Below, one piece after another: positions 2,401 to 19,249 of a stretch of 33,383 nucleotides of DNA. A program made the position numbers and the translations under genes. Numbering within the stretch: the first letter of the stretch is position 1; the number at the start of each line of letters is the position of its first letter. The stretch is from Anaerolineae bacterium (lineage in GTDB: Bacteria; Chloroflexota; Anaerolineae; Anaerolineales; Anaerolineaceae): assembly GCA_021287005.1 (NCBI GenBank), contig JAJTBH010000003.1, positions 1 through 33,383 of the forward strand. The letters run 5' to 3'. A model generated the notes under the pieces. It did no database searches and was not told the origin of the DNA. It worked only from the letters and a program-made list of their open reading frames with translations.

Positions 2401-2632
2401 CCTGTTCCTTTCCGCGCAAAAACTCGTCTTTCATTTACTAAATGTGTAAAATCATTATAAGCTATTTTAAATCAATAAGATAATAAAAACATAAATTATA
2501 CACAAACGAACGATAAATAAAAGTGGAAAATGTCCAATCTTAATGGGAATTTCAGTAACGGATATCCATTTGACTTTCGATGCGGAAATTTTCCAGGAAT
2601 CACAATTTAATCTGCGGCAGGAGAATTTTTTT
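2401..2632. promoter_or_regulatory. AT-rich divergent intergenic region
   Basis: About 230 bases separate the start of the membrane-anchored protein gene (minus) from the start of the sensor kinase gene (plus). The core at about 2440-2520 is very AT-rich and must hold promoters for both directions, but I see no pair of -35 and -10 boxes good enough to place either one. The kinase start at 2633 is fixed by AGGAG nine bases upstream. Confidence 0.4.
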
Positions 2633-3808
2633 ATGGACTTATCAAAAATCGATCCATTAACCCTGCAAAAAGCTTTTCCGGGGATGCAAGACGACGAAAT
2701 CCATCAGATGATTTCCATCGGTATATTAAAGGAATATCCTCCACAAACAACCCTCTGTCATGAGGGTCAGATTGAGGATGTATTTTACATCATTATTGAC
2801 GGCAAAGTGCAGGTAAGCAAACATATTAATGAAAGTCAACTGCGGCTGCTTAAATATCTTGGCAATGGCGATTTTTTTGGAGAAATGGGCATCATCCACG
2901 AGGTGCCGCGCGGTGCATCGGTTACCACGTTAGTTCCGACCCGTGTGATTGAAATTAATAAGGACGATTTTAAGGTTTTCCTGGAAGGACACAGCAGCAT
3001 GTCCCTGGCAATGGTGCGCGAGGTCAGCCGCAGACTGCGCGAAAACGATGAAATGGCCATTGACGACTTGCGCCAGAAAGCGCATGAATTGGAAGAAGCT
3101 TACCGCCAACTGGCTGATATGGAAAAAGCCCGCAGTCGTTTTCTGGCAACAATTGCCCATGAACTGCGCACCCCACTGACGGCCTCAAACGGTTTTGTAC
3201 AGATGATTCAGAGCGGCCAATTAAGCGGTGAAGCGCTTGACTCGGCACTGGAAATTGTTTCGCGAAATTTGCAGGAGATTATCACCCTCACCAACGATAT
3301 TTTATTTTTGCAGGAAATGGAGTTAATCCTGCCCAAATTTATTCCCGTCGATATCGGCGCCATTGTGGTGGCTTCGGTGGAAAAACAGCGCAAAAACGCC
3401 GTGCGCAACCAGGTTTCGCTCGCGCTTAATATCGCCGCCGACCTGCCCACCATCCATGCGGCGCCGCGCAGTCTCGAACGCGCTTTCACAGCCATTCTGG
3501 ATAACGCCATTAAATTCAGCCCGGATGGCGGTGAAGTGACCATAGATGTTAAAGCGGGACCCGATTTAATGAGCGTCAGAATCGCCGACCAGGGCATCGG
3601 CATTACGGAGGATGTGCTGCCACATATTTTTGAACGGTTTTACCATGTGGATGAAGACAGCCAACACCTCTTTCGCGGCGTAGGTCTGGGTTTATCCATT
3701 GCGCGGCATGTCATCGAGCAGCACCAGGGTGCAATTGAAGTAACAAGCACACCCGGCAAGGGCAGCGTTTTTACCATCACCCTCAAACGTTTGTCTGAGA
3801 CTCCTTAA
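2633..3808 (+). CDS. Cyclic-nucleotide-binding-domain sensor histidine kinase, soluble, orphan
   Basis: A 391-residue predicted cytoplasmic kinase. Residues about 30-140 form a Crp-like cNMP-binding domain with FGEMGIIHEVPRGASVTT at 82-99, the usual phosphate-binding cassette position. A short linker helix (about 143-168) leads to a HisKA dimerisation domain with the phospho-acceptor His176 in ATIAHELRTPL, then a HATPase_c domain with N-box DNAIKF (290-295), G1 box DQGIGI (319-324) and G2 box GVGLGLSIARH (349-359). No transmembrane segment and no receiver domain are present, and no adjacent response regulator, so it is an orphan. An ATG at 2543 would add 30 residues, but AGGAG sits nine bases before the ATG at 2633 and the cNMP domain starts soon after it. 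The family predicts autophosphorylation controlled by a bound small molecule; which nucleotide, if any, cannot be told. Confidence 0.92.
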   Translation: MDLSKIDPLTLQKAFPGMQDDEIHQMISIGILKEYPPQTTLCHEGQIEDVFYIIIDGKVQVSKHINESQLRLLKYLGNGDFFGEMGIIHEVPRGASVTTLVPTRVIEINKDDFKVFLEGHSSMSLAMVREVSRRLRENDEMAIDDLRQKAHELEEAYRQLADMEKARSRFLATIAHELRTPLTASNGFVQMIQSGQLSGEALDSALEIVSRNLQEIITLTNDILFLQEMELILPKFIPVDIGAIVVASVEKQRKNAVRNQVSLALNIAADLPTIHAAPRSLERAFTAILDNAIKFSPDGGEVTIDVKAGPDLMSVRIADQGIGITEDVLPHIFERFYHVDEDSQHLFRGVGLGLSIARHVIEQHQGAIEVTSTPGKGSVFTITLKRLSETP

Positions 3809-3861: not shown

Positions 3862-3889
3862 AACCGTCCATCTGAACGGTTTGTTTTTG
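3862..3889 (+). terminator. Candidate rho-independent terminator after the sensor kinase
   Basis: A 6-bp stem, AACCGT (3862-3867) paired with ACGGTT (3876-3881), with an 8-base loop is followed by TGTTTTT. It is short but well placed, 54 bases past the kinase stop and upstream of the mraZ promoter. Confidence 0.5.
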
Positions 3890-3967
3890 GTTGATATTTT
3901 TTAAACTCATGCCCAAAAAATCAATGGTTAACATCTTCATCAAAAGTTAATAATGGAAAATAACCGC

Positions 3968-3996
3968 TTGCAATTTTAATTTTTTTAGTTTATACT
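3968..3996 (+). promoter_or_regulatory. Promoter of the mraZ-led dcw cluster
   Basis: A -35 box TTGCAA (3968-3973) and a -10 box TATACT (3991-3996) are separated by exactly 17 bases. The predicted start is near 4003, giving a leader of about 75 nt before the mraZ ATG. The boxes differ from consensus at two and one positions. The MraZ repeat array begins directly after the -10 box. Confidence 0.75.
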
Positions 3997-4030
3997 GTGG
4001 AAGAAAGTGGTTAAAAGTGGGTCAAAGTGG
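3997..4030 (+). promoter_or_regulatory. MraZ operator: four GTGG direct repeats at 10-bp period
   Basis: GTGG occurs at 3997-4000, 4007-4010, 4017-4020 and 4027-4030. Spacing is exactly 10 bp each time, and copies two to four share AAGTGG. Known MraZ proteins bind tandem TGG-containing direct repeats with this helical spacing upstream of their own gene, and here the array covers the predicted transcription start just before mraZ. The assignment to MraZ is by analogy of motif, spacing and place; the effect is expected to be repression of the whole cluster. Confidence 0.85.
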
Positions 4031-4056
4031 AGCGCCGGGTCAAACCGGCGTTCCAC
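4027..4056 (+). promoter_or_regulatory. Hairpin in the mraZ 5' leader
   Basis: GTGGAGCGCCGG (4027-4038) pairs with CCGGCGTTCCAC (4045-4056) around the loop GTCAAA, giving a 12-bp stem with one G-U wobble. The wobble forms only in plus-strand RNA (it would be a C-A mismatch on the other strand), so the structure fits the mraZ transcript. No U-tract follows, so it is not a simple terminator. The ribosome site GAGG (about 4066) lies ten bases past it. It also contains the fourth GTGG repeat. Confidence 0.6.
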
Positions 4057-4077
4057 ATATTTCACGAGGTAGAACTT

Positions 4078-4512
4078 ATGTTCTTGGGTCAGTACGAACA
4101 CAGCATTGATGAAAAAGGACGCGTCACCATTCCGGCTCGCTATCGCGACCTGCTGGAAGACGGTGCTTACATCACGCTGGGTTTTGACCAGAATCTCATT
4201 GTAATGACTCCCGCCATTTTTGAAAAGATGTCGTTACGTCTCAGTCAGATGAATATGGCTGACCCCACAGCGCGCCAGTTAAAACGGTTAATCTTTTCTA
4301 ACGCAGAAAAAGTTGAGGTGGATAAAGCAGGACGCATCCTGATTCCGGCATTTTTACGCCAGCCGGTGCAACTGGAAGTTTCCGCAATGGTCGTGGGCAC
4401 CGGCAGTTATTTTGAAATCTGGTCGCCCGAACTCTGGAAGAAACAAAGCGAACCGCTGGCGGACGCCGAATCTAACCAGCAGCGATTTGCGCTCTTAGAT
4501 TTATCCATATAG
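4078..4512 (+). CDS. mraZ: Transcriptional regulator MraZ
   Basis: 144 residues, the usual family length. It has two SpoVT/AbrB-like halves marked by HSIDEKGRVTIPARYR near the N-terminus and VEVDKAGRILIPAFLR in the middle. MraZ forms ring-shaped oligomers that bind tandem repeats in its own promoter and control the dcw cluster. An upstream in-frame GTG at 4027 would add 17 residues, but it lies inside the operator repeat and hairpin; the ATG at 4078 is preceded by GAGGT at correct spacing, and MFLGQYEHSIDEKGR matches the conserved MraZ start. It is the first gene of the cluster, 8 bp before rsmH, as in most bacteria. Confidence 0.97.
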   Translation: MFLGQYEHSIDEKGRVTIPARYRDLLEDGAYITLGFDQNLIVMTPAIFEKMSLRLSQMNMADPTARQLKRLIFSNAEKVEVDKAGRILIPAFLRQPVQLEVSAMVVGTGSYFEIWSPELWKKQSEPLADAESNQQRFALLDLSI

Positions 4513-4520
4513 GTGAGGAC

Positions 4521-5459
4521 GTGTGGCCAGCCGAATATCAAGCTTATCCTCACTTACCTGTTCTTTACCAAGAGATCATGGATGCTTTGCATCCCCACAG
4601 CCCGGGAAAATATGTTGACGGGACTGTAGGGGCAGGGGGACACGCGTGGGGTATTCTTGAAAGAAGTGCACCTGATGGCGGCCTGTTGGGTCTGGATGTT
4701 GACCCTCAGGCGCTTTCTATCAGTGCACAACGCTTAAGTTCTTTCGCAGGACGGTTTACCCTGGTGCGCGCTTCCTACACTGCCTTGCGTGATGAAATTA
4801 ACCGCGCCGGGTGGGCAGCCGTGGACGGCATATTGCTCGATTTGGGTGTGTCATCAATGCAAATCGATACGCCTGAACGCGGGTTTTCATTTATATCCGA
4901 AGGCCCGTTGGATATGCGCCTCAACCCGGCCCAGCCCACGACCGCTGCAGACCTGTTAAACACGCTGGACGAAACGGAGCTGGCGCGCATCATTTACGAA
5001 TACGGAGAAGAGCCGCTTTCTCGCCGGTATGCACGCGCCATCGTTCAGGCCAGGCCCCTCGTCACCACCCGCCAACTGGCCGACGTGATTTTGCGGGCTT
5101 CCGCATCAAAGCGCGGCCGCATTCATCCGGCCACACGTACCTTTCAGGCCGTTCGCATCGCCCTGAACGGCGAATTAAACAGCCTGAGCCAGACCTTACC
5201 ACTGGCAGTGGCAAGCCTGGTCAAAGAAGGTCGACTGGCCGTCATATCGTTTCATTCGTTGGAAGATCGAATTGTTAAACATTTCTTCCAGCGTGAAAGT
5301 CGTGATTGCATTTGCCCTCCGGAACAGCCGGTATGCACGTGTAATCACCATGCATCGATTAAGTTAATTACCCGCCATCCAATCGAGGCGGGCGAAGAAG
5401 AATTAAGTGTCAACCCGCGTGCGCGCAGCGCACGATTAAGGGTTATCGAAAAACTGTAA
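4521..5459 (+). CDS. rsmH: 16S rRNA (cytosine1402-N4)-methyltransferase RsmH
   Basis: 312 residues, full length, formerly MraW. It transfers a methyl group from S-adenosylmethionine to N4 of C1402 in the decoding centre of 16S rRNA. Seen are the SAM-binding YVDGTVGAGGHAWGIL (31-46), LGLDVDPQAL, GILLDLGVSSMQID, ATRTFQAVRIALNGEL, AVISFHSLEDRIVKHFF and the C-terminal RARSARLRVIEK. A CxC/CxxxxxC-type cysteine group (DCICPPEQPVCTC) lies near the C-terminus, as in other family members. The start is GTG at 4521, eight bases after mraZ, with AGGTGAGG just upstream. Confidence 0.97.
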   Translation: MWPAEYQAYPHLPVLYQEIMDALHPHSPGKYVDGTVGAGGHAWGILERSAPDGGLLGLDVDPQALSISAQRLSSFAGRFTLVRASYTALRDEINRAGWAAVDGILLDLGVSSMQIDTPERGFSFISEGPLDMRLNPAQPTTAADLLNTLDETELARIIYEYGEEPLSRRYARAIVQARPLVTTRQLADVILRASASKRGRIHPATRTFQAVRIALNGELNSLSQTLPLAVASLVKEGRLAVISFHSLEDRIVKHFFQRESRDCICPPEQPVCTCNHHASIKLITRHPIEAGEEELSVNPRARSARLRVIEKL

Positions 5460-5468
5460 GGAGTGGTA

Positions 5469-5492
5469 TGATTCTTGCAATGAGGCCTTAAA
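5469..5492 (+). CDS. Possible 7-codon leader ORF upstream of ftsL
   Basis: ATG at 5469 opens a frame coding MILAMRP and closing at TAA. AAGGAG, a perfect ribosome site that overlaps the rsmH stop, lies four to five bases before it. The following ftsL-like gene, 24 bp downstream, has a poor ribosome site, so ribosomes terminating here could re-initiate there. A near-duplicated AGGCCTTA sequence covers its end. It may simply be chance; no peptide function is implied. Confidence 0.3.
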
Positions 5493-5516
5493 GGCCTTAA
5501 ATGGGACCAAGACGTT

Positions 5517-5993
5517 ATGGCTCAAGGATTTTTTCAAGCCTTTCAACAGGCTCCCTGGCGTGTTCAGATACAGAGACTGGGACTAATTTTATTAGGCCTG
5601 GTCATTTTTGGTTCTACTGCGGGGATTTATCTCAGCATTTCGGCCAATGCTTATGCCACCGGTGTTCAGGTGCAGGAGTATGACATCAAACGTGATGAAT
5701 ATCAGCGTGAGATTGCCGATTTGCAAACGCAGAAAGCCATCTTTATCTCATCCAGCAACATGGAAAAACGCGCCGGCGAGCTTGGTTTTGTGACTCCCGC
5801 TCAAGAGGAACTGGTTTATTTGATCGTGCCCGGTTATACCGGCAGGCAGTTGGATATTAAAACCTCACCTCCCACGCAAGAAATCAAACCTTCACTGATT
5901 AAACCGGCTTTCAGCCAATCTTTATGGGAATACCTGGTTCAAAGCGTCCTGCTCATGGGCAACGATCCGTCATCCGGAGGTGCATTGCCATGA
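5517..5993 (+). CDS. ftsL: FtsL/DivIC-like division protein
   Basis: 158 residues: a short amphipathic N-terminus, one membrane segment at about 20-42 and an extracytoplasmic coiled-coil-like stretch at about 52-75 (EYDIKRDEYQREIADLQTQK), then MEKRAGELGF at 82-91 and a hydrophobic EELVYLIVPGY strand. This type II bitopic layout, with the M-x-x-x-A-x-x-L-G-F element after a short coil, is that of septum-formation-initiator (FtsL/DivIC) proteins, which link FtsQ and FtsI/FtsW at the division site. Sequence conservation in the family is low, so the call rests on architecture and position between rsmH and ftsI. The ATG at 5517 lacks a strong ribosome site. Its stop overlaps the ftsI start by 4 bp (ATGA), implying coupled translation. 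Confidence 0.8.
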   Translation: MAQGFFQAFQQAPWRVQIQRLGLILLGLVIFGSTAGIYLSISANAYATGVQVQEYDIKRDEYQREIADLQTQKAIFISSSNMEKRAGELGFVTPAQEELVYLIVPGYTGRQLDIKTSPPTQEIKPSLIKPAFSQSLWEYLVQSVLLMGNDPSSGGALP

Positions 5994-7768
5994 AAAATTT
6001 AGGACGATTGAATATTCTTGGAATTGTTTTAACAACCATGACCGGTTTAATTTTTATGCGCATGATTTATGTGCAGTTCAGCAACGGCGGCCAGGAACTG
6101 CTCAAAGAAGCCGAAGCCAATTATCGTTACGAACATGAAGAAATTGTGCCTGCGCGCGGCAGCATTTACGACCGCTGGGGCAACCTGCTGGCCGGCAATA
6201 GGACCGTGTACGAACTGGGCATCAACCTGGCCAACACGGAACGCAACCCGCGTACCATTGCCAAACATCTTTCCAGTCTGTTGGGCATGGATTATAACGA
6301 TGTTTATAACCTGGCCAGCACCCCGTTGAAAGCCGGGCAGCAGTATATTGTTCTTAAAGATTTTGTCGATGGTGATACCATCAACCAGATTCAGGAAATT
6401 AAAGGCAAACTGAGCAAGAATCCCGATCCGGCGCTGGAAGGTGAAGCTTCCGGAACGCTGGAAGGCATTGAATGGCAGCCGCACCTCAAACGCGAATACC
6501 CCGAAAATTCGCTGGCGTCGAATGTGCTCGGTTTTTACGCTTTTCTTGACCGCAAGGAAGGCGATGCCCATTATGGCGTTGAAGAGGAATATAACAAACT
6601 GCTGGCCGGAAATTCCATGCAGGTCGATATTCCCATTGAGCCGCGCGAAGCCGCGGAAATTCCCACCGTGCCGCCGGGCGACAGCCTGGTATTAACCATT
6701 GACCGCCGTATTCAGCAGTCGGTTGAAGAAATTTTGGACCGCGCCGTCGAGAAAAATCAGGCCATTTCCGGCACCATCATCGTCATGGATCCTGAAACCG
6801 GCGAAATTCTGGCCATGGCAACCAATCCGCGCATCAATCCCAATGAATACTGGCAGTCCAACATGGTGGTTGAAACCAAAAGTTATAACCGCGCCATCGA
6901 CATCACTTACGAACCCGGATCGGTTTTTAAAGTGTTAACTATGGCAGCCGCTATGGATGCCGGGGTTGTTAACGCCGATACGCCTTTTAACGACACCGGC
7001 TCGGTCGAACTGGGTGGTTACACCATTTATAACTGGGACCGTTCCGCCTGGGGCCAGCAAACCATGTTGGGGTGTATGCAGCATTCGCTTAACGTCTGCC
7101 TTACCTGGGTGGCCATGCAGTTGGGCTCCGGACATTTTTATGATTACATGCGCGCCTTTGGCATCGGTCAATATACCAATATCGATCTGGCCGGTGAAAA
7201 GGTGTTCCCCTTATCCTTCCCCGGTGATTCCAACTGGGCGGATATCAACCTTGGCACCAATTCATTTGGTCAGGGTCTGGCCGTCACCCCGCTGCAAATG
7301 GTTCAAGCGGTCGGCGCCATTGCCAACGACGGCAAAATGATGTCGCCGCACATTTTAAAATCGATTATCAAAAACGGTGAAAAAACTGATTTTCCCGCAC
7401 GTCAGGTCGGTCAGCCCATTACGGCCAAAACCGCGCATGAATTGACCGATATGCTGACAATTTCGTTGGAAGAAGAAGCTTCATCTGCCCTGGTGGATAA
7501 TTATCGCGTCGCCGGAAAAACCGGCACGGCTGAAATCCCCAGTCCCGAAGGTTATATCAGCAACGTAACCAACGCCTCTTTTGTGGGTTGGGGACCGGCT
7601 GATGATCCAAAATTTATTGTGTATGTCTGGCTTGAAAAACCGAAGAGTTCCATCTGGGGCTCGGTGGTGGCTTCGCCCGTGTTTTCAAGCGTCGTGCAAA
7701 AACTGGTGGTTTTAATGGATATTCCCCCTGATTCAACCCGCCAGCAATTATTAATGACTCGTAATTAA
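5990..7768 (+). CDS. ftsI: Septal peptidoglycan transpeptidase FtsI (class B penicillin-binding protein)
   Basis: 592 residues. An N-terminal membrane anchor (about 8-29) is followed by the PBP dimerisation region (EEIVPARGSIYDRWGNLLA, about 51-69) and a transpeptidase domain with all three active-site motifs: S311-V-F-K314, S366-L-N368 and K510-T-G512. It cross-links septal peptidoglycan outside the membrane, working with FtsW. No PASTA repeats follow the catalytic domain. The frame extends upstream to 5924, but the ATG at 5990 has GGAGG nine bases before it and overlaps the ftsL stop as ATGA, and MKNLGRLNILG leads straight to the anchor. Its position after ftsL argues for the septal enzyme rather than an elongation PBP2. 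Confidence 0.95.
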   Translation: MKNLGRLNILGIVLTTMTGLIFMRMIYVQFSNGGQELLKEAEANYRYEHEEIVPARGSIYDRWGNLLAGNRTVYELGINLANTERNPRTIAKHLSSLLGMDYNDVYNLASTPLKAGQQYIVLKDFVDGDTINQIQEIKGKLSKNPDPALEGEASGTLEGIEWQPHLKREYPENSLASNVLGFYAFLDRKEGDAHYGVEEEYNKLLAGNSMQVDIPIEPREAAEIPTVPPGDSLVLTIDRRIQQSVEEILDRAVEKNQAISGTIIVMDPETGEILAMATNPRINPNEYWQSNMVVETKSYNRAIDITYEPGSVFKVLTMAAAMDAGVVNADTPFNDTGSVELGGYTIYNWDRSAWGQQTMLGCMQHSLNVCLTWVAMQLGSGHFYDYMRAFGIGQYTNIDLAGEKVFPLSFPGDSNWADINLGTNSFGQGLAVTPLQMVQAVGAIANDGKMMSPHILKSIIKNGEKTDFPARQVGQPITAKTAHELTDMLTISLEEEASSALVDNYRVAGKTGTAEIPSPEGYISNVTNASFVGWGPADDPKFIVYVWLEKPKSSIWGSVVASPVFSSVVQKLVVLMDIPPDSTRQQLLMTRN

Positions 7769-7782
7769 CAGGTAGGTGCGTC

Positions 7783-9195
7783 GTGTTTTTTCTGGCCGAT
7801 GTAATTGAGGCTCTCACAAATATTCGCCCTGCAGGGGCTTCGCTGGCAATCAGCGAAGCCGCCATTGATTCCAGGCAAATCATACCTTCCGCCTTGTTCG
7901 TCGCCCTGGTGGGCGAACGCGTGGACGGGCATGATTATATTGGAGAGGCTTTTAAACGCGGCGCATGCCTGGCTCTCGTGCAGCACCCGGTTGAAGGATA
8001 CCCCCTGGTTGATTTACGATCCGCCTTACCGGCCGATTTCAGCCTGCCTCAAGCGCCCTTCTGTCTGTTGGTAGAAGATACTCTCAAAGCGCTGCAAGTC
8101 ATCGCCGCTTTCTGGCGCGGAAAATTACCCAAGCTGGAAGTAATCGGCATTACCGGCAGCGTGGGTAAATCGACCACCAAGGAACTGATCTACGATGTCT
8201 TAAGCCAGCAGTTCCGCACCTTAAAAAGCCCCGGCAACATGAATAATGAAATCGGCCTGCCGCTTTCACTTTTGCGCCTGGGGCGCGGTCACCAGCGCGC
8301 CGTTTTGGAAATGGGTTTTTATGTACCCGGCGAAATCGCCTTTTTGTGCGATCTGGCCAAACCGCGCATTGGTGTGATCACCAATATCGGCACCGTGCAT
8401 GCCGAACGCGCCGGTTCACAGGAAGCCATCGCCAGAGGTAAATCCGAGCTGGTGCAGGCGCTGCCTGAAGACGGCGTTGCCATCCTAAATTATGATGATC
8501 CCTGGGTGCGCCCCATGGCTGAAAAAACCCGAGCACGCGTTTTTTATTACGGTCTCGACGAAAACGCCGACCTGTGGGCTGATCACATTGAAGGGCAGGG
8601 TCTGGAAGGGATTAAATTCCGCCTGCATTACCAGAAAGAAATTTTGCATTTACGCGCGCCGCTCATCGGACGTCATTCAGTGCATACCATTTTACGCGCC
8701 ACGGCCGTGGGCCTGATGCAAAACATGACCTGGCAGGATATCATTTCGGGTCTACAGCAGGGGCGCAATCAATTGCGTCTGGTTGCCGTACATACCCAGA
8801 GCGGAGCCCTGCTGCTGGATGACACGTATAATGCTTCGCCGGAATCAACCCTGGCAGCCCTTAACCTGCTGGAAGAGTTGGAGGGGCGCAAGGTTGCCGT
8901 TCTGGGCGATATGCTTGAACTGGGTCCCTATGAAAAACAGGGGCATCGTTTGGTGGGCGCTCGTGTAGCCGAGGTGTGTAACCAACTGGTGGCAGTCGGC
9001 CCACGCAGCAAAACCACCGTTCAGGCCGCACAACAGGCCGGAATGCCGGCTTCAGCCATCACCTGGTTTGAGCAGGCGCCGGATGCAATTGTTTTCCTGA
9101 AAGAACAATTACAAAAAGGCGATACGGCCCTGGTTAAAGGTTCACTGGGAATGGGCATGGCGCGCATTGTGAATGCATTGGAGATCGAATCATGA
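7783..9195 (+). CDS. murF: UDP-N-acetylmuramoyl-tripeptide--D-alanyl-D-alanine ligase MurF
   Basis: 470 residues, full length. It adds the D-Ala-D-Ala dipeptide to UDP-MurNAc-tripeptide, the last cytoplasmic amino-acid step. The Mur ligase layout is seen: N-terminal substrate domain (IDSRQIIPSALFVALVGERVDGHDY, shown here in part), ATP loop GITGSVGKSTTKE at about 122-134, the NMNNEIGLPLSL and LEMGFYVPGEI substrate elements, NIGTVHAERAGS, and the C-terminal LLDDTYNASPEST and LGDMLELG. NNEIG and DDTYNASP separate it from MurE and MurC. The start is GTG at 7783 after AGGTAGGTG. The stop overlaps the mraY start by 4 bp. There is no murE before it, unlike the commonest dcw order. Confidence 0.95.
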   Translation: MFFLADVIEALTNIRPAGASLAISEAAIDSRQIIPSALFVALVGERVDGHDYIGEAFKRGACLALVQHPVEGYPLVDLRSALPADFSLPQAPFCLLVEDTLKALQVIAAFWRGKLPKLEVIGITGSVGKSTTKELIYDVLSQQFRTLKSPGNMNNEIGLPLSLLRLGRGHQRAVLEMGFYVPGEIAFLCDLAKPRIGVITNIGTVHAERAGSQEAIARGKSELVQALPEDGVAILNYDDPWVRPMAEKTRARVFYYGLDENADLWADHIEGQGLEGIKFRLHYQKEILHLRAPLIGRHSVHTILRATAVGLMQNMTWQDIISGLQQGRNQLRLVAVHTQSGALLLDDTYNASPESTLAALNLLEELEGRKVAVLGDMLELGPYEKQGHRLVGARVAEVCNQLVAVGPRSKTTVQAAQQAGMPASAITWFEQAPDAIVFLKEQLQKGDTALVKGSLGMGMARIVNALEIES

Positions 9196-10184
9196 AAGAA
9201 ACCGCTTTAGCTCTGGCTTTAAGCATCTTATGTTTTATGATGGCCGTAATCTGGGGCGGGCCGCTTATTCGTATTTTCAGGCACTTTAAGATCGGCAAAC
9301 TGATCCGCGTGGAAGGGCCGGAAAGTCATATCACCAAGATGGGCACCCCCACCATGGGCGGTCTGATGTTCATTGTTCCGGTTGTTTTATTAACCATCTT
9401 GTTTAACTTTGCCTCCTTTATGGGCAAGGAAGTAACCAACAAGTCGGTTTTATTGTTGATTGCCGTTATGCTCAGTTTTGCCATTCTGGGTGTTATTGAT
9501 GATTGGGAAGGCATTCGCGGCCCCCGCAAAGGCCTGGGGATGCGCGCCCGCACCAAGTTCCTTATTCAGACCATCCTGGCGTTGATCATTGCCTTTTTAC
9601 TCAAAAATGTATTCATCGCTCCCGAGCTTTTCTGGCCGGGGGTTAACATGATCGTCTCCCTGGGTTATTTTTATATTCCGCTGGCCGCGTTTATCATTGT
9701 GGCAGCTTCAAATGCGATTAATTTCACCGATGGGCTCGACGGTCTGGCCGGCCTGATTGCCGCCACAGCTTTTACCGCCTATGGCAGCATCGCTTTTCTG
9801 CAAAACCAGGTCGAGATCGGTCGGTTCTGTTTCACCGTGGTGGGGGCTCTTTTTGGCTTTTTGTGGTTTAACGTGCATCCCGCCGAGTTATTCATGGGCG
9901 ACACCGGGTCGCTCTCATTGGGCGCCACGCTGGCCACCGTGTCTTTAATGACCGGCCGCTGGTGGTTGTTGCCCATCATTATCATCATCCCGGTCAGCGA
10001 AGTGGTCAGTGTGATGTTGCAGGTGGCCTACTTCCGTATGACCAAGGGAAAACGTCTCTTTAAAATGGCACCCATCCATCACCATTTTGAGTTGCTGGGA
10101 TGGAGCGAAACGCAGGTTGTACAGCGCTTCTGGCTGGTCAGCCTGTTATGTGCCATGTTAGGTATTGCGCTGGCGCTGGTATAA
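9192..10184 (+). CDS. mraY: Phospho-N-acetylmuramoyl-pentapeptide transferase MraY
   Basis: 330 residues with about ten membrane segments. It joins phospho-MurNAc-pentapeptide to undecaprenyl phosphate, giving lipid I on the inner face of the membrane. Signatures are TKMGTPTMGGLM, the first aspartate motif VIDDWEGI with RGPRKGLGMRARTKF, NAINFTDGLDGLAG, MGDTGSLSLGA, and the His-rich MAPIHHHFELLGW with SETQVVQRFW at the C-terminus, which marks MraY against WecA-type relatives. The ATG overlaps the murF stop (ATGA). murD follows after 3 bp. Confidence 0.97.
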   Translation: MKETALALALSILCFMMAVIWGGPLIRIFRHFKIGKLIRVEGPESHITKMGTPTMGGLMFIVPVVLLTILFNFASFMGKEVTNKSVLLLIAVMLSFAILGVIDDWEGIRGPRKGLGMRARTKFLIQTILALIIAFLLKNVFIAPELFWPGVNMIVSLGYFYIPLAAFIIVAASNAINFTDGLDGLAGLIAATAFTAYGSIAFLQNQVEIGRFCFTVVGALFGFLWFNVHPAELFMGDTGSLSLGATLATVSLMTGRWWLLPIIIIIPVSEVVSVMLQVAYFRMTKGKRLFKMAPIHHHFELLGWSETQVVQRFWLVSLLCAMLGIALALV

Positions 10185-10187
10185 ACG

Positions 10188-11576
10188 ATGACAGAAATCT
10201 GGTCCGGCAAACACGTTCTCATCATTGGCGCAGCCCGTCAGGGTCTGGCTCTGGCACGCTATTTAATTCGGCGCGGCGCTTTTGTGACGCTTAACGACAA
10301 ACGCGATGCCGCCGACCTGAAAAGCGCCTTTGAAAGCATGCAGGGGTACGAAAGATTGAGTTGGGCGCTGGGCAACCACGACAGCGTTTTGCTGGACGGG
10401 AAAGACTTGCTGTGTCTGTCCGGCGGTGTATCGATTGACCTGCCGGTTGTGTTGGAAGCCCGCCGCCGGGGTCTGCCGGTATCAAACGATACCCAGATCT
10501 TCATGGACGAAGTGTGCGCCGATGTCACCGGAATTACCGGGTCGGCCGGAAAAACCACCACCACCACCCTGGTTGGCAAAATGCTAAAAACGGCCACTCA
10601 AGCTCCGCATAATGCCTGGATTGGCGGGAATATCGGCCAGCCATTGATTGAATTTGTTGACCAGATTGCCCCTGACGATAAAGTTTTACTGGAACTTTCC
10701 AGTTTTCAGCTTGAATTAATGCATGCGTCGCCGCATATCGGCGCTGTTTTAAACATCACCCCCAATCATCTTGACCGGCACGGCACGCTTGAAGCCTATA
10801 CGGCTGCCAAAGCACACATCCTGAGCCGGCAAAAAACCGGCGATGTAGCCGTATTAAACCGCGAAGATCCCGGTTCTTGGAATTTGCGCAGCCTGGTAAA
10901 AGGGCGTTTAATCAGTTTTGGCATGCACCCTGTCCCGGCCGGCGAAGAAGGCAGTTACTGCCGGGATGGTCAAATTTTCCTGAAATTGCAGGATTCCGAA
11001 ACGACAGTTTTGCCGCTCAGCCTCATTAAATTGCGCGGCGACCATAATATTTACAATGTGCTGGCCGCCGTCGCCATTGCAGGCGCGTTGAATATTTCAG
11101 GCGATATTATGCGCAGCGTTGTTGAACGTTTCAGCGGCGTGCCGCACCGGCTTGAATTTGTCCGTGAATTCCGCGGCAGCCAGTGGTACAACGACTCAAT
11201 TGCCACCGCTCCCGAACGCACCATGGCCGCGCTGCATTCTTTTGATGAGCCGCTCATTTTATTGTTAGGCGGGCGCGACAAAAACCTGCCCTGGGCCGAG
11301 TTGGCTGCCCTGGTGCATAAACGCGTGAAACACGTGTTGGTTTTTGGCGAATCTGCGCCCAAAATACTGGCCGCCCTGGGCGGGGTGCAGACCGGTGAGA
11401 TTCTGCAAGGCATTCACCCCTGCGATACCCTGCCGGATGCGGTCAACAAGGCCGCTTCTCTGGTGCAAACCGGAGATGTGGTATTGCTCTCACCGGGCGG
11501 CACCAGTTTTGACGCTTTTAAGGATTTTGAAGAGAGAGGAGAACAATTTAGATTATGGGTGAACACTCTTTCATGA
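10188..11576 (+). CDS. murD: UDP-N-acetylmuramoylalanine--D-glutamate ligase MurD
   Basis: 462 residues. It adds D-glutamate to UDP-MurNAc-L-Ala. The N-terminal Rossmann-like domain has LIIGAARQGLALARYL (11-26); the ATP loop is GITGSAGKTTTTT (115-127); LLELSSFQLELM, ITPNHLDRHGTLEAYTAAK, the C-terminal YNDSIATAPERTMAAL and LLLGGRDKNLPW complete the MurD set. The ND(S)IATxPE element is typical of MurD, where MurC has DDYGHHP. The start lies 3 bp after mraY with little ribosome site of its own, which suggests coupled translation. Its last 22 bp overlap ftsW. Confidence 0.96.
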   Translation: MTEIWSGKHVLIIGAARQGLALARYLIRRGAFVTLNDKRDAADLKSAFESMQGYERLSWALGNHDSVLLDGKDLLCLSGGVSIDLPVVLEARRRGLPVSNDTQIFMDEVCADVTGITGSAGKTTTTTLVGKMLKTATQAPHNAWIGGNIGQPLIEFVDQIAPDDKVLLELSSFQLELMHASPHIGAVLNITPNHLDRHGTLEAYTAAKAHILSRQKTGDVAVLNREDPGSWNLRSLVKGRLISFGMHPVPAGEEGSYCRDGQIFLKLQDSETTVLPLSLIKLRGDHNIYNVLAAVAIAGALNISGDIMRSVVERFSGVPHRLEFVREFRGSQWYNDSIATAPERTMAALHSFDEPLILLLGGRDKNLPWAELAALVHKRVKHVLVFGESAPKILAALGGVQTGEILQGIHPCDTLPDAVNKAASLVQTGDVVLLSPGGTSFDAFKDFEERGEQFRLWVNTLS

Positions 11577-12832
11577 ACCAAAATCCGGCATCGGTTGACC
11601 CCAACCAGAAACTGCGTAATATGCGCCAGACCGGCAGTACCGGTCACGCCTTTTTTACGGAGTTGGACCTCGTATTATTGTTAATTGTGGCTATATTACT
11701 GGTGATCGGTTTGTTAATGGTTTATTCGTCGAGCTGGAACTTTGGTGTGATCAATGGTTTTGATCCCGCATACATTCTTAACCGTCAGGTTATGTGGGTC
11801 GGATTGGGCATCGTGGCGTCTCTGGTTTTGAGCCGTATTGATTACCATAAATACCAGCGTCTGGCCGTTCCGATGATTTTGGTCACTCTTCTTTTGCTCC
11901 TGGTGGTTCTGATTGTCGGCAACCTGCGTTTTAACGCCACACGTACCCTGGTGAACGGTTCCGTGCAGCCTTCGGAACTGGCAAAAATGGCCGCCATCAT
12001 TTACCTCTCCTTCTGGTTGTATTCCAAGCAGGAGCACATTAATGACGTGTCGCTGGGCTTGCTGCCAATGGCCATCATCCTGGGTTTGATCAGCGGTTTC
12101 ATCTTCCTGCAGCCCGATTTAAGCGCCGGTTTAACCATCATCCTGTTGGGAGGCATTTTGTTTTACGTGGCGGACGGCGACTTTAAGCAAATTTTGCTGG
12201 TTGTGATTATGGTTGCCATCATGGCCTGGATTTTAATTGCAGTCAGTTCCACCGGCCGCACCCGCCTGGCAGATTATCTTTCGGGTCTGCAAAACCCCGA
12301 ACAGGCTTCTTACCACGTGCGCCGTTCGATTGAAGCTGTGGTGCGTGGCGGTTGGTTTGGCGTAGGCATCGGCAACAGCGCCACCAAATTTACCGGTTTG
12401 CCGGTTCCGTGGACAGACAGTATCTTTGCCGTAATCGCCGAAGAAACCGGTTTGTTCGGCGCAACTTTTGTCATCATCCTTTATGCAGCTTTTCTGTGGC
12501 GCGGTTTGTTAATTGCCAACCATGCGCCCGATATGTTGGGAAAACTTCTGGCCAGCGGTGTCACCATCTGGATCACCATTGAGGCCATTATTAATATGGG
12601 CGTGTTGGTCAACCTGTTCCCGTTCGCCGGAAACGCGTTGCCGCTCGTCAGCGCCGGGGGTTCCAACCTGGTAACCACTATGGTTGGTATTGGTATTTTG
12701 TTAAACGTATCAAGGCAGGGCAACAAAATTGCCCAGGATGCCGGGAGGGTTAACAGTGCGGTTGTTGATATGCGCTGGAGGAACGGGGGGGGGCGTGTAT
12801 CCCGCCCTCGCCGTTCTGAAAGCAATCACTAA
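11555..12832 (+). CDS. ftsW: Septal peptidoglycan polymerase FtsW (SEDS family)
   Basis: 425 residues, about ten membrane segments. SEDS proteins polymerise lipid II into glycan strands together with a class B PBP, here FtsI. Seen are MVYSSSWNFG, VQPSELAKMA, FLQPDLSAGLTI, GIGNSATKFTGLPVPWTDS with the conserved aspartate, FAVIAEETGLFGA and GNALPLVSAGGSNLVTTMVGIGILLN. ATG 11555 is preferred (AGGAG 13 bases upstream); ATG 11573 overlapping the murD stop is an alternative, six residues shorter. The last 26 codons overlap murG, so the basic tail RWRNGGGRVSRPRR is read from DNA that also codes the MurG glycine loop. A run of nine G (12785-12793) lies in that overlap. Confidence 0.95.
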   Translation: MGEHSFMNQNPASVDPNQKLRNMRQTGSTGHAFFTELDLVLLLIVAILLVIGLLMVYSSSWNFGVINGFDPAYILNRQVMWVGLGIVASLVLSRIDYHKYQRLAVPMILVTLLLLLVVLIVGNLRFNATRTLVNGSVQPSELAKMAAIIYLSFWLYSKQEHINDVSLGLLPMAIILGLISGFIFLQPDLSAGLTIILLGGILFYVADGDFKQILLVVIMVAIMAWILIAVSSTGRTRLADYLSGLQNPEQASYHVRRSIEAVVRGGWFGVGIGNSATKFTGLPVPWTDSIFAVIAEETGLFGATFVIILYAAFLWRGLLIANHAPDMLGKLLASGVTIWITIEAIINMGVLVNLFPFAGNALPLVSAGGSNLVTTMVGIGILLNVSRQGNKIAQDAGRVNSAVVDMRWRNGGGRVSRPRRSESNH

Positions 12833-13862
12833 AGATGCGGAAGCCATCCTCTGGGTTGGCGGCAAAAGAGGCATTGAAGCGGGGTTGATCCAGCGCGAAG
12901 GCCTGCCTTTTGAAGCCATCCCTGCGGCGGGGATTCATGGTGTTGGGCTGCGTGCCCTGCCCGGCAATTTATTGCGCCTCGGGCAAGGTTTGCTGGCTTC
13001 ACGTCGATTATTAAAGGATTTTAAACCCGACGTGCTCTTTTTCACCGGCGGTTATGTGGCTTTTCCCATGGCGCTGGCCGGTTGGAATATTCCCAGCGTG
13101 TTGTATGTGCCCGATATTGAACCCGGTTTGGCGCTCAAATCGCTCTCGCGTTTTAGCCGTGCCATTGCTCTGACAACCGCCGATTCGCAGGCCTATTTTC
13201 CGGCCAACAAACAAATGACGGTCACCGGTTATCCCATCCGGCCTGAATTGGCGCATTGGACGCGTGAAAACGCCCGGCAAACGCTTAACTTACAGGCCGA
13301 TTTGCCCACCCTGTTGGTATTTGGCGGCAGCCTGGGGGCCCGCTCCATCAATCGCGCCCTGCTGCACCATGTCGGTGATTTATTACAGCAGGTTCAAATT
13401 GTGCATATCACCGGCAATCTTGATTGGGAAGAAGTGCAGGCAGCGCGGAAAGCCCTGCCCAGTGCGCTGATGGAACGTTATCACACTTACGCTTATCTGC
13501 ATGAGGAAATGGGCGCCGCTCTGGCCGCCGCTGATCTGGTTATTTCTCGCGCGGGAGCATCCATTTTGGGTGAGTTTCCTTATTTCGGACTGCCGGCCAT
13601 TCTGGTGCCTTACCCGCATGCCTGGCGTTACCAGAAAATCAACGCCGAATATCTGCAAAAACACGGCGCGGCCATACTGGTGAAAGATGAAGAATTATCC
13701 GACCATATTTACGGTCTGGTGAACGACTTGATCTCGCAGCCCGAAAAGCTGCAAACCATGAAAGACAAAATGCTGGCGCTGAGTCATCCCGATGCCGCCA
13801 GGCGGATTGCCGAGATCATCCTTAACACTGCCGGAAGCGGAGGTAAACATGGTCGGGCTTAA
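12756..13862 (+). CDS. murG: MurG-type UDP-GlcNAc:lipid I glycosyltransferase, divergent acceptor domain
   Basis: 368 residues. MurG adds GlcNAc to lipid I to make lipid II at the inner membrane face. The GT-B fold is seen: N-terminal MRLLICAGGTGGGVYPALAV, KPDVLFFTGGYVAFPMALAG, FGGSLGARSINRALL, and the donor-site SRAGASILGEFPYFGLPAILVPYPHA with QKINAEYLQKHGAA. Two elements differ from classical MurG: the glycine loop reads GGTGGG where GGTGGH is usual, and the HEQN-type motif is replaced by VPDIEPG. GTG 12756 is chosen because GGAGGG lies six bases upstream and MRLLICAGGTGG is where the family begins; a longer frame from 12729 has no such support. It overlaps ftsW by 77 bp. Position in the cluster and lack of another candidate support MurG. 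Confidence 0.88.
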   Translation: MRLLICAGGTGGGVYPALAVLKAITKDAEAILWVGGKRGIEAGLIQREGLPFEAIPAAGIHGVGLRALPGNLLRLGQGLLASRRLLKDFKPDVLFFTGGYVAFPMALAGWNIPSVLYVPDIEPGLALKSLSRFSRAIALTTADSQAYFPANKQMTVTGYPIRPELAHWTRENARQTLNLQADLPTLLVFGGSLGARSINRALLHHVGDLLQQVQIVHITGNLDWEEVQAARKALPSALMERYHTYAYLHEEMGAALAAADLVISRAGASILGEFPYFGLPAILVPYPHAWRYQKINAEYLQKHGAAILVKDEELSDHIYGLVNDLISQPEKLQTMKDKMLALSHPDAARRIAEIILNTAGSGGKHGRA

Positions 13863-14388
13863 TGTGCTGCTCTGGGTATTTATTGCTTTGTTTGGCATCA
13901 TCGGTTATGCGCGCGGTTATAAACGCGAACTGCTGGTAACCTCATCGGTGATTTTAACCCTGTATTTAATCACCATTCTTGAGGCTTATATACCCTTCAT
14001 CCGCGACACACTCGTGCCCAACCCGCAGGGTTCCATTTTCTGGATGCGCCTGGCAATCTTTGGTTTTCTGGTTTTTTTCGGTTACCAGACTCCCACCATT
14101 CCGCGCGTCAACCAGAACGAACGTTTTCACATTCGCAATCCGCAGGATTCAATCGTCGGACTGGTGGTAGGCGCTGTGAACGGTTATTTATTATTTGGCA
14201 CTTTCTGGTATTACCTGGATGTTTCGGGATATCCCATCCCGTTTATCTCTTCGCCCGAATTAATTGCCGTGGCAGGAGAATCGTTTAAACAAATCATCAA
14301 CTTAATGCCACCTGCCGTTCTGGCAGCCCCCGCCATTTATTTTGTGGTGGCATTGGCATTAACCATGGTACTGGTCGTATTTATTTAA
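13849..14388 (+). CDS. CvpA-like integral membrane protein
   Basis: 179 residues with about four hydrophobic segments: near 3-22, 26-46, 60-78 and 155-178, plus a weaker one at about 103-123. GIIGYARGYKRELLVTSSV near the N-terminus and DSIVGLVVGAVNGYLLFG in the middle resemble the RGF-x-RE and G-x-x-x-G helices of CvpA family proteins, whose function is still poorly defined (colicin V production, envelope integrity). The loop between (PTIPRVNQNERFHIRNPQ) is polar. The start at 13849 is fixed by GGAGG a few bases upstream and overlaps the murG stop by 14 bp; the frame extends upstream to 13792 without support. Its place between murG and murC implies an envelope role. The CvpA link is tentative. 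Confidence 0.7.
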   Translation: MVGLNVLLWVFIALFGIIGYARGYKRELLVTSSVILTLYLITILEAYIPFIRDTLVPNPQGSIFWMRLAIFGFLVFFGYQTPTIPRVNQNERFHIRNPQDSIVGLVVGAVNGYLLFGTFWYYLDVSGYPIPFISSPELIAVAGESFKQIINLMPPAVLAAPAIYFVVALALTMVLVVFI

Positions 14389-14390
14389 TT

Positions 14391-15767
14391 ATGGAACATA
14401 TACACTTAATTGGAATCGGTGGTACAGGTCTCTCGGCCATTGCCCGCTTGCTGCTCGAAAGAGGATACCGGGTAAGCGGTTCTGACCGCGCCGCCTCAAC
14501 CTTTACGGACGCATTAATCGAATCCGGCGCCACTGTTTATATCGGTCACAAAGCCGAAAATATATCGGGGGCTGATGTTGTGGTGCGCTCCTCAGCGGTC
14601 ACTGAAGATAATCCCGAAGTTGTCGCAGCACGGGCTGCTTCAATCCCTGTGTATAAACGTTCCGAATTTTTAGGCAAACTCCTGGCCGGGTTTACCAGCA
14701 TGGCAGTCGCCGGTACACATGGCAAAACTACCACCACGGCCATGTTGGCCTGGGCCCTGGAAGGCGCCGGTGTATCGCCTTCTTACATCATCGGCGGCAT
14801 TTCCAAAAACCTGGGCAACAATGCGCGCGCCGGCAAAGGTTTTTATTTTGTCATCGAAGCCGACGAATACGATGGCATGTTCCTGGGATTAAACCCCGAT
14901 TGGGCCATTGTCACCAATATGGAACATGATCACCCCGATTGTTACCCGACTCCCGAAGAGTATACGCACGCTTTTAGCGCTTTTGTCGCTCGAGTAAAAC
15001 CCAATGGTGGGCTTTTTATCTGCGGCGATGAAAGCAGTCTCAGTGTTTTGCCCGCTTACCTGCCGGCTGCGGCCAAAGCCTTTACTTATGGCTTAAACAG
15101 CGGCAACACATACCAGGCAGGCGCTATTAAACTGGATGACAACGGCAATTGTCATTTCAGTCTGCTTTACAAAGGTGAAGCCCTGGTAAACATCAGTTTA
15201 CCCGTGCCGGGCGAACATAATATTCGGAATGCCCTGGCGGTTCTGGGCGTGTGCCACCAATCCGGCATGGATTTAAATCGGGTCGCCGCTGCGCTGGCCG
15301 GGTTTAGCGGAACGGGGCGCCGGTTTGATATTGCCGGGACCGTGGGCGGCATCACCCTGATTGACGATTACGGTCACCACCCCACCGAGATTAAAGCCAC
15401 CTTGCAGGCAGCCCGCAGTCGTTACGGCAGTCGTCGAATCTGGGCCGTCTGGCAGCCACATACCTATTCGCGTACGCAAACCCTCTTTAAAAACTTTATC
15501 GAAGCATTTTCCGATGCCGATCGGGTTGTGGTCACAGAAATTTATGCTGCGCGCGAAGCTTCCACCGGTTTTTCGGCCAACCAACTGGTTAATGCCATGT
15601 CACATACCGGAAAACATTTTGTACCCGATCTCGCTTCGGCAGAAGCCTATTTGCAGGAAAACCTGCAAAGCGGCGACGTTGTATTGGTTCTTTCAGCCGG
15701 GGATGCCAACCTGATCTCCGCGCATTTACTGGAACATTTTAAACAAAAGGAGCAGCAACATGTCTAA
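14391..15767 (+). CDS. murC: UDP-N-acetylmuramate--L-alanine ligase MurC
   Basis: 458 residues, full length. It adds L-alanine to UDP-MurNAc, the first peptide step. Seen are the N-terminal nucleotide-type loop IHLIGIGGTGLSAIARLL (4-21), the ATP loop AGTHGKTTTTAML (107-119), EADEYDGMFLGLNPDWAIVTNMEHDHPDCY (shown here in part: the DEYD and MEHDHPD elements), SGTGRRFDI, and the MurC-specific DDYGHHPTEI with WAVWQPHTYSRT. The start lies 2 bp after the CvpA-like stop with no clear ribosome site, so coupled translation is likely. Its 3' end carries AAGGAG, the ribosome site of the following small ORF, which overlaps it by 8 bp. Confidence 0.97.
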   Translation: MEHIHLIGIGGTGLSAIARLLLERGYRVSGSDRAASTFTDALIESGATVYIGHKAENISGADVVVRSSAVTEDNPEVVAARAASIPVYKRSEFLGKLLAGFTSMAVAGTHGKTTTTAMLAWALEGAGVSPSYIIGGISKNLGNNARAGKGFYFVIEADEYDGMFLGLNPDWAIVTNMEHDHPDCYPTPEEYTHAFSAFVARVKPNGGLFICGDESSLSVLPAYLPAAAKAFTYGLNSGNTYQAGAIKLDDNGNCHFSLLYKGEALVNISLPVPGEHNIRNALAVLGVCHQSGMDLNRVAAALAGFSGTGRRFDIAGTVGGITLIDDYGHHPTEIKATLQAARSRYGSRRIWAVWQPHTYSRTQTLFKNFIEAFSDADRVVVTEIYAAREASTGFSANQLVNAMSHTGKHFVPDLASAEAYLQENLQSGDVVLVLSAGDANLISAHLLEHFKQKEQQHV

Positions 15768-15903
15768 TTCCGGCGGTCAAACCATTTCCCAGACCGGGAA
15801 ACAACACAAGCCGCTCATTAAAAGCGGCAAGAACACAAAAAATGCAGCCATCAACAAGAGCACGATTAAGGCTCTGATTAAGTATTTTGAAAACAAGGCA
15901 TAA
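15760..15903 (+). CDS. Small basic protein (47 aa) between murC and murB, function unknown
   Basis: A 47-codon frame starts with ATG at 15760, overlaps the murC stop by 8 bp and ends 5 bp before murB, filling the gap between them. AAGGAG lies seven bases upstream of the ATG, among the best ribosome sites in the cluster. The product is strongly basic: nine lysines and one histidine against a single glutamate. The first half (MSNSGGQTISQTGKQHKP) looks disordered; the second (NKSTIKALIKYFENKA) could form one amphipathic helix. No membrane segment or signal peptide is visible and I recognise no family. Position, spacing and ribosome site support a real, co-translated gene; a nucleic-acid- or membrane-surface-binding role would be guesswork. 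Confidence 0.7.
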   Translation: MSNSGGQTISQTGKQHKPLIKSGKNTKNAAINKSTIKALIKYFENKA

Positions 15904-15908
15904 AGAAG

Positions 15909-16847
15909 ATGACTGACGTTAACGGCACCTCAAACATTCCCATGCAGACCCTGCGCGACATTTTTGGCGACGCGTTAAAAGAAAACGTTGCCATGGCGGG
16001 TTATACCACCGCGCGAGTTGGCGGCAAAGCGGATGCTTTGGTGGTGCTTCGTAACGCCCATGAGCTGGAGAGCGCCGTTAAACGATTGTGGGCTGAAAAT
16101 ATCGCCTTCCATCTGATTGGAAGCGGCGCCAATGTTTTAGTGTCAGACAACGGTTTGCGCGGTGTGGTGCTGATTAACCGCGCCAATGCCATTCAAATAA
16201 ATGCGGATGGCAACCCGCCCACGGTGCGGGCTGAATCAGGCGCGATTTTCAGTTCGGTTGCCCGCCAGGCCGCCCTGCACGGTTTAAGCGGCCTCGAATG
16301 GGCCTGTGCCGTTCCGGGCACCGTCGGTGGGGCCGTTTATGGTAATGCCGGCGCTTTTGGCGGAGATGTTAACGGCAGCCTGCTAATGGCAGAAATCTTG
16401 CAACAATCAGGTAAAATTGTCTGGTCGTGCGAAGAAATGTCATACAGCTATCGCTCCAGCCGGCTTAAAAGATCCCACGAACCGGCCATTATTCTGGCCG
16501 CTACAATGAACCTGAAACAGAGCGATACCGCCACGGTTCAGGCACAAATGGATACCTATAGTGACAGGCGTCGTTCCACCCAGCCTCCCGGGGCAAGCAT
16601 GGGGTCCATGTTTAAAAACCCGCCCGGTGATCACGCTGGAAGGCTGATTGAAGCCGCGGGATTAAAAGGAACCAGAATAGGCGGAGCAGAAGTGAGTAAG
16701 GTGCATGCCAATTTTTTCGTTAATAACGAGAATGCCACGGCATCCGACCTTTACCAACTGATCCGCCTCGTGCAGTCTAAGGTATTAAAAAACACCAACG
16801 TCTTGTTGGAATTAGAGGTAGAACTGCTGGGCGACTGGCAGGAATAA
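15909..16847 (+). CDS. murB: UDP-N-acetylenolpyruvoylglucosamine reductase MurB
   Basis: 312 residues. MurB uses FAD and NADPH to reduce UDP-GlcNAc-enolpyruvate to UDP-MurNAc. Seen are TTARVGGKADALVVL and LIGSGANVLVSDNGLRGVVL of the FAD-binding domain, GLSGLEWACAVPGTVGGAV and YGNAGAFGGD, YSYRSSRLK, and PPGASMGSMFKNP with the serine that protonates the substrate in this family, followed by AGRLIEAAGLKGTRIGGAEV and VHANFFVN. The start is ATG 15909, five bases after the small ORF; ATG 15942 is possible. The YSYRSS element with this C-terminal part resembles the type II (Gram-positive style) enzymes. Confidence 0.96.
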   Translation: MTDVNGTSNIPMQTLRDIFGDALKENVAMAGYTTARVGGKADALVVLRNAHELESAVKRLWAENIAFHLIGSGANVLVSDNGLRGVVLINRANAIQINADGNPPTVRAESGAIFSSVARQAALHGLSGLEWACAVPGTVGGAVYGNAGAFGGDVNGSLLMAEILQQSGKIVWSCEEMSYSYRSSRLKRSHEPAIILAATMNLKQSDTATVQAQMDTYSDRRRSTQPPGASMGSMFKNPPGDHAGRLIEAAGLKGTRIGGAEVSKVHANFFVNNENATASDLYQLIRLVQSKVLKNTNVLLELEVELLGDWQE

Positions 16848-16870
16848 AAAGAGAAATAACAGGTAAAGTT

Positions 16871-17935: not shown

Positions 17936-17938
17936 CAT

Positions 17939-19171: not shown

Positions 19172-19186
19172 TTGCCATTTCGTGTA

Positions 19187-19192
19187 TATAAT
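19187..19192 (+). promoter_or_regulatory. Possible internal promoter for ftsZ (-10 box only)
   Basis: A perfect TATAAT lies in the 78-bp ftsA-ftsZ gap, the widest gap in the second half of the cluster. No convincing -35 box stands 16-18 bases upstream. A perfect TTGACA at 19219-19224 has no -10 at the right distance. Extra ftsZ expression from here is plausible, since ftsZ often has its own promoter. Confidence 0.35.
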
Positions 19193-19249
19193 TAACTGGT
19201 GATCAGGTTATCGATGTTTTGACATTATTAAGTTGTAGAGGAGCGTAAG

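Follow-up and report, generated by a model that had tools for sequence, protein, structure and literature searches.

A putative MraZ operator array, a conserved leader stem-loop and a LexA-type palindrome on the mraZ start codon in Anaerolineales

In the 33,383-nucleotide stretch of Anaerolineaceae DNA analyzed here (the window), a promoter-like site before mraZ is followed by a GTGG array predicted to be an MraZ operator, by a leader stem-loop and by a palindrome that spans the mraZ start codon and matches the operator found before lexA. The array alone is ordinary, and a link between LexA and mraZ is not new in itself; as far as the literature was searched, what is new is the composite of the three elements in an order of Chloroflexota. 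The initial annotation, which described the promoter and the array, overlooked both the stem-loop and the palindrome.

The GTGG array and the division cluster

The hexamers of the mraZ promoter, TTGCAA (-35, 3968-3973) and TATACT (-10, 3991-3996), lie on the forward strand with a spacer of 17 bases, and from them transcription is predicted to start at about 4002-4004. The putative MraZ operator (3997-4030, forward strand), delimited by sequence and comparison, extends across this predicted start. Its four GTGG boxes begin at 3997, 4007, 4017 and 4027 with an exact 10-bp spacing, and their placement directly 3′ of TTGCAA-17-TATACT in the initial annotation agrees with the sequence positions. 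Box 1 starts on the base right after the -10 hexamer and lacks the AAA that precedes GTGG in boxes 2-4 (AAAGTGG at 4004, 4014 and 4024), because the hexamer occupies that place. The array ends 47 nt 5′ of the mraZ ATG, and 3961-4080 contains no GTGG besides the four boxes. The pattern GTGG-N6-GTGG-N6-GTGG has two overlapping matches in the window, both in this array, compared with a mean of 0.00 in 100 dinucleotide-preserving shuffles of the window; in the 4,150,650-base assembly (87% complete) the array is the sole place where the pattern occurs, and its backwards control gives 0 matches.

The gene behind the array (4078-4512, forward strand) starts with the ATG at 4078, as judged from reading frame and homology, and encodes 144 amino acids with two MraZ repeats (PF02381); Pfam and PDB sequence matches identify it clearly. 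A GAGG at 4066-4069 on the same strand is the probable ribosome-binding site. MraZ similarity places the genome with Anaerolineaceae, the best named records including Longilinea, with Levilinea, Pelolinea, Thermanaerothrix and Anaerolinea in the same list. According to its Pfam domains, the dcw cluster from mraZ to ftsZ covers 16.4 kb of the forward strand (4078-20437) in the order mraZ, mraW/rsmH, a small ORF, a PBP transpeptidase, a Mur ligase, an MraY-like gene, a murD-like gene, ftsW, murG, a Colicin_V-like gene (Pfam match below the cut-off), a murC-like gene, murB, ftsQ, ftsA and ftsZ. The small ORF, in the ftsL position, has no Pfam match, and the single Mur ligase and the gene names are presumptive assignments, made largely from position. 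At the level of sequence, this arrangement supports the earlier proposal of an autoregulatory MraZ operator before a division cluster of about 16 kb. Just 5′ of the cluster lies a gene for a histidine kinase with a cyclic-nucleotide-binding domain (2543-3808), and a terminator-like hairpin (3862-3881) stands between that gene and the mraZ promoter.

MraZ was found in 58 of 61 near-set genomes and in 232 of the 251 genomes of the Chloroflexota sample, the genome of the window being included in both counts. The order set combines 57 near-set mraZ upstreams (own included), 14 from the Chloroflexota sample and 80 named loci; these 151 leaders collapse to 123 distinct ones, and the window's own leader (L003) is counted inside the sets of 55, 57 and 123. 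A partial mraZ with no upstream sequence (G008) was left out, and two loci with no recognizable leader (L040 and L046) were kept in the sets of 57 and 123 and omitted from the 55-leader alignment and the covariance model. The set outside the order (n = 57) consists of 49 manually selected mraZ upstreams, between one and three for each family sampled among the matches listed, and of 8 further loci, three of which represent one genus.

The initial annotation had named absence of the repeats from mraZ of close relatives as grounds for refutation, and the repeats are kept: 117 of the 123 distinct order leaders have three or more of the four in-register TGG (5 of 2460 single-base shuffles), as do 52 of 57 mraZ upstreams outside the order (4 of 1140 shuffles). 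A period of 10 stands out against periods 7-15 in the relatives' mraZ leaders, and in 68 of the 117 order leaders with the array the first box directly follows the -10 hexamer. Fewer than three in-register boxes are found in 6 of the 123, and at L051 the leader is present and the array absent.

Four boxes had also been regarded as a longer array than that of E. coli, for which Eraso reportedly described three MraZ repeats in 2014. As a distinguishing feature this is not supported, since four in-register TGG occur in 63 of the 123 order leaders and the excerpted report on Burkholderia cenocepacia also gives four (PMC7761207). In that excerpt, four repeats of 7 nt, each separated from the next by 3 nt, lie 3′ of the -10 of the PmraBc promoter and cover the start site, and a fragment with the four repeats was gel-shifted by MraZ (PMC7761207). 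The copy number, the 10-bp period and the place after the -10 are the same as here, and the four-box array is accordingly not novel, although B. cenocepacia belongs to a different phylum and the excerpt makes no mention of a leader stem-loop or a LexA site. The MraZ site of Mollicutes, (AAAGTGKN3)3 (Fisunov 2016, as cited in excerpts of PMC5282649 and PMC8475190), shares the box AAAGTGG and the 10-bp unit with the present array, but has three repeats, whereas here there are four GTG cores, of which the first is fused to the -10 hexamer. Passages of PMC5138195, PMC5089854 and PMC11796246 add nothing on box number. Because the relatives, the Mollicutes box and the B. cenocepacia array agree, the array is very probably an MraZ operator of the known kind, in which four copies are common, and its binding by MraZ is predicted.

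The leader stem-loop

A stem-loop at 4027-4056 (forward strand), supported by folding and covariation, consists of a 12-bp stem, GTGGAGCGCCGG / CCGGCGTTCCAC, and the loop GTCAAA, and the fourth MraZ box lies within its 5′ arm. Its folding energy is -26.5 kcal/mol (folding z -7.9). Over 55 order leaders, double changes occur in 9 of the 12 pairs, with 37 such cells compared with 18.2 in shuffles, and 86.3% of the cells are paired compared with 38-50% in slid versions of the stem; further pair types are no more numerous than in shuffles (110 of 500; 55 leaders). G-U pairs are frequent, being found in 22 of the 55 leaders at one pair, which argues for an RNA structure over a DNA palindrome. The covariance model of the stem-loop has one match per genome in 13 of 151 phylum-sample genomes, all 13 of them within the order, and each match adjoins mraZ. 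In a cruder stem test, 118 of the 123 order leaders pass, compared with 331 of 2460 shuffles, and outside the order the test is passed by 13 of 57 upstreams and 177 of 1140 shuffles, so that there is little or no excess of stems there. Rfam has 0 matches in the window at the gathering threshold and, in the upstreams of 20 relatives, 7 matches up to E 0.5, all under gathering scores; no additional genomic copy of the leader is convincing, the next best having E 0.19. With this covariation, it is very likely that the conserved RNA stem-loop is real.

The bases 3′ of the stem are ATATTTCAC. There is no T-run and no terminator prediction at 4027-4056, and the element was therefore rejected as an intrinsic terminator or attenuator. 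Pairing of the 3′ arm with the GAAC before the start codon was also rejected, because GAAC is kept where the arm differs (L010, L051, L052 and L055). The role of the stem-loop is probably to protect or insulate the 5′ end of the mRNA.

The palindrome on the mraZ start codon

The palindrome AGAACTTATGTTCT (4071-4084, no strand assigned) spans the mraZ start codon (4078-4080) and is a candidate LexA (SOS) operator of the form GAACN4GTTC. The mere presence of its exact palindromic core, GAACTTATGTTC at 4072-4083, is little proof, since 0.64 such sites are expected by chance in the window. GAAC occupies positions -6 to -3 of mraZ in 50 of 57 leaders, compared with 4 of 1708 other ATGs in the same loci, where it also precedes 1 of 26 non-mraZ ATGTTY. 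The full palindrome is present in 87 of the 123 order leaders. ATG-TTY partly dictates the 3′ half of the palindrome. At codon 2 (Phe), 71 of 80 named loci have TTC, compared with 265 of 577 Phe codons elsewhere in these genes (p 5e-14), and from this excess the coding half, too, seems to be selected; outside the order, codon 2 is TTC in 21 of 52. A leader peptide with the TAG at -8 as its stop was rejected, because -8 is T in only 46 of 57 leaders.

The fixed box on the start codon is confined to the order, as compared with the sample outside it. There, 51 of the 57 mraZ upstreams have no exact box and 6 have exact palindromes, where 0.25 are expected and 11 control permutations total 3; these palindromes sit away from the mraZ start codon. 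Sixteen follow-up loci, which were chosen from two families with a box or near-box (f33 and f43) and are not an unbiased sample, yielded 3 more exact palindromes, all directly after the array. Among 15 loci of f33, 3 have an exact box, 6 a one-mismatch box and 6 no box; the exact boxes (L303, L307 and L308) and the one-mismatch boxes (L114, L116, L118, L299, L301 and L304) all follow the last MraZ box immediately and lie off the start codon. At the place of the GAAC of L303, its relative L301 carries GCAC. In f43, the box is absent from 5 of 6 loci.

GAACN4GTTC is a Gram-positive-type SOS box, for which reason lexA was examined in the relatives, and work on Dehalococcoides reportedly extends it to Chloroflexota. 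Among 30 order relatives, 29 have the box 5′ of lexA, the miss being L070. Outside the order, the exact box precedes lexA at 15 of 30 loci (29 genomes), those without an exact box including L174 and L196. The genome of the window has its own lexA at G000:C527, with AGAACGAATGTTCT upstream between TTGACA and TATATT. The operator before lexA of these Chloroflexota is a 4-4-4 palindrome with the flank AGAAC, the same as at mraZ, but the two differ in place: the box of the own lexA lies between the promoter hexamers, whereas that of mraZ lies about 75 bp downstream of the -10, across the start codon. When sites are scored on the lexA boxes, which were themselves chosen as exact palindromes, the score of the weakest lexA box is equalled or exceeded by 98 of the 123 mraZ start sites, compared with 2.7e-5 of background positions. 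Four of the 6 outside-order genomes with an exact mraZ palindrome have an exact lexA box, and the other 2 are one mismatch off. In G004, G018 and G045, which are 87-91% complete, GAAC is present at mraZ and a lexA match is absent; G069 and G112 (f33) have one-mismatch boxes at mraZ and none before lexA.

In the own genome there are 5 palindromes of the form RGAACN4GTTCY (4 for the backwards control). The stricter AGAACN4GTTCT has 3 sites, at lexA, at mraZ and after a promoter-like site before another ORF, and the other two of the five palindromes lie inside long ORFs. The third strict site, at G000:C264:4884-4897 (L285:1501-1514), is a 14-mer identical to AGAACTTATGTTCT and directly follows a promoter-like TTGACA-17-GATAAT; about 300 bp 3′ of it is an ORF whose end, on visual inspection, looks like a LuxR-type helix-turn-helix, and on sequence this ORF is possibly a further SOS gene.

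The LexA reading, its alternatives and a possible circuit

That the palindrome on the start codon is a LexA operator is the reading that we consider likely, with some reserve. The precedent is partial: in the excerpted PMC3998124, mraZ is among new SOS candidates of Gram-positive gut bacteria, a gel shift showed binding of B. subtilis LexA to the tested site, and the box at mraZ is, as here, of the Gram-positive type. The link was thus proposed earlier for gut bacteria, in an excerpt that gives neither the position of the site nor an MraZ array (PMC3998124), whereas here the phylum is Chloroflexota, and the box is on the start codon throughout one order and adjoins an MraZ array. The literature searched on LexA with mraZ or with Chloroflexi gave no report of such an arrangement in Chloroflexota, though one may exist.

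Several points count against the LexA reading. A box about 75 bp past the -10 is not in a classic repressor position. Induction of division genes by SOS would run contrary to the usual SOS arrest of division. In Corynebacterium glutamicum, mraZ mRNA fell rather than rose after ciprofloxacin (PMC5055667). In addition, GCAC replaces GAAC in 14 of the 123 leaders, namely in L060 and in 13 of the 15 distinct leaders of f12, a uniform near-miss in f12 that simple loss of a LexA site does not predict. These f12 leaders (e.g. L035 and L094-L097) have TAGCAC for TAGAAC at the mraZ start with TTC as codon 2 in all 13, a combination explained neither by an operator nor by an RNA element, and the consensus box is retained before lexA in the two f12 genomes read. 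The partly dictated 3′ half, the GTTT of 15 leaders with GAAC, the GAAC of G004, G018 and G045, the lack of an exact box at most mraZ and half of the lexA loci outside the order and at 5 of 6 f43 loci, and the near-boxes of G069 and G112 weigh on the same side.

The palindrome might instead act in RNA, with AGAAC pairing with GUUCU around the AUG and tuning initiation of mraZ translation, perhaps together with the stem-loop. The minimum-free-energy fold does contain a 5-bp hairpin at the start codon, the half-site is exactly on the start codon in 102 of the 123 order leaders, and the bias to TTC would also follow, G-C pairs being formed rather than G-U. However, on its own this small hairpin does not stand out from shuffles (z -0.91; 31 of 200 fold as well), GAAC is kept in the 15 leaders in which codon 2 is TTT and the combination is GAAC with GTTT, AAAC replaces GAAC in none of the 123 leaders, and the GCAC leaders break the pairing. 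The same palindrome also occurs off the start codon before mraZ in other families, and the identical 14-mer follows a promoter-like site elsewhere in the genome. An RNA element is for these reasons considered unlikely, and a LexA operator is favored over a translation element because of the selection for TTC and the exact palindromes off the start codon elsewhere.

It is about equally unlikely that mraZ is under plain MraZ autoregulation and that the stem-loop and palindrome serve unrelated housekeeping functions or persist as inherited relics. The sharing of the array alone across the sampled phylum (52 of 57 upstreams from outside the order) would fit this explanation, as would the confinement to one order of the fixed start-codon box and of the stem-loop (13 of 57 outside, compared with 177 of 1140 shuffles, in the crude test). 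On the other hand, GAAC carries 1.5-2.0 bits per base over 57 leaders, more than the 0.2-0.6 bits of the less conserved ribosome-binding region, and compensatory changes in the stem are many, so that both elements look selected. An activating rather than repressing role of MraZ at the array, as proposed in Mycoplasma, is improbable, for although the box form is that of Mollicutes and overexpression of MraZ in M. gallisepticum was accompanied by raised FtsZ (cited in an excerpt of PMC8475190), boxes over and after the predicted start site are in a repressor position, and in M. genitalium without MraZ the same excerpt gives mraW and ftsZ as raised (log2 3.02 and 2.34).

MraZ is widely conserved in bacteria, and the signal that it answers is unclear. 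If the palindrome is a LexA operator, its place beside the MraZ operator would give MraZ an input, DNA damage, and connect SOS directly to the division-gene operon in a bacterial order. MraZ subunits, aligned on one face of the helix, would contact one box per turn, and MraZ on the array would cover the transcription start and repress the promoter in the manner of the E. coli and Burkholderia operators, a role suggested by position and precedent. In undamaged cells, LexA on the start-codon palindrome would partly block elongation into the operon, and the RNA hairpin between the two sites would protect or insulate the 5′ end of the mRNA. Removal of LexA upon DNA damage would then raise mraZ, as the first gene, together with the rest of the dcw cluster, until newly made MraZ shut the promoter through the array; the resulting self-limiting pulse, which we regard as a tentative idea, would tie division-gene expression to the SOS response. 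It is equally speculative that the entire dcw operon of Anaerolineales, with FtsZ, forms an SOS operon in which LexA on the mraZ start codon and an MraZ-limited pulse after damage halt or reset division in place of SOS inhibitors of the SulA, YneA and DivS types, and that the pairing of array and LexA box arose, or was kept, in several other families of Chloroflexota. The same leader is found in cultured members of Longilinea, Levilinea, Pelolinea and Thermanaerothrix, which makes the LexA-mraZ idea directly testable.

Second, more divergent copies of mraZ were observed at G047:C1:2401586-2402008 (L058) and G293:C16:24916-25341; that of G047 has neither array nor leader upstream and was dropped from all leader counts.
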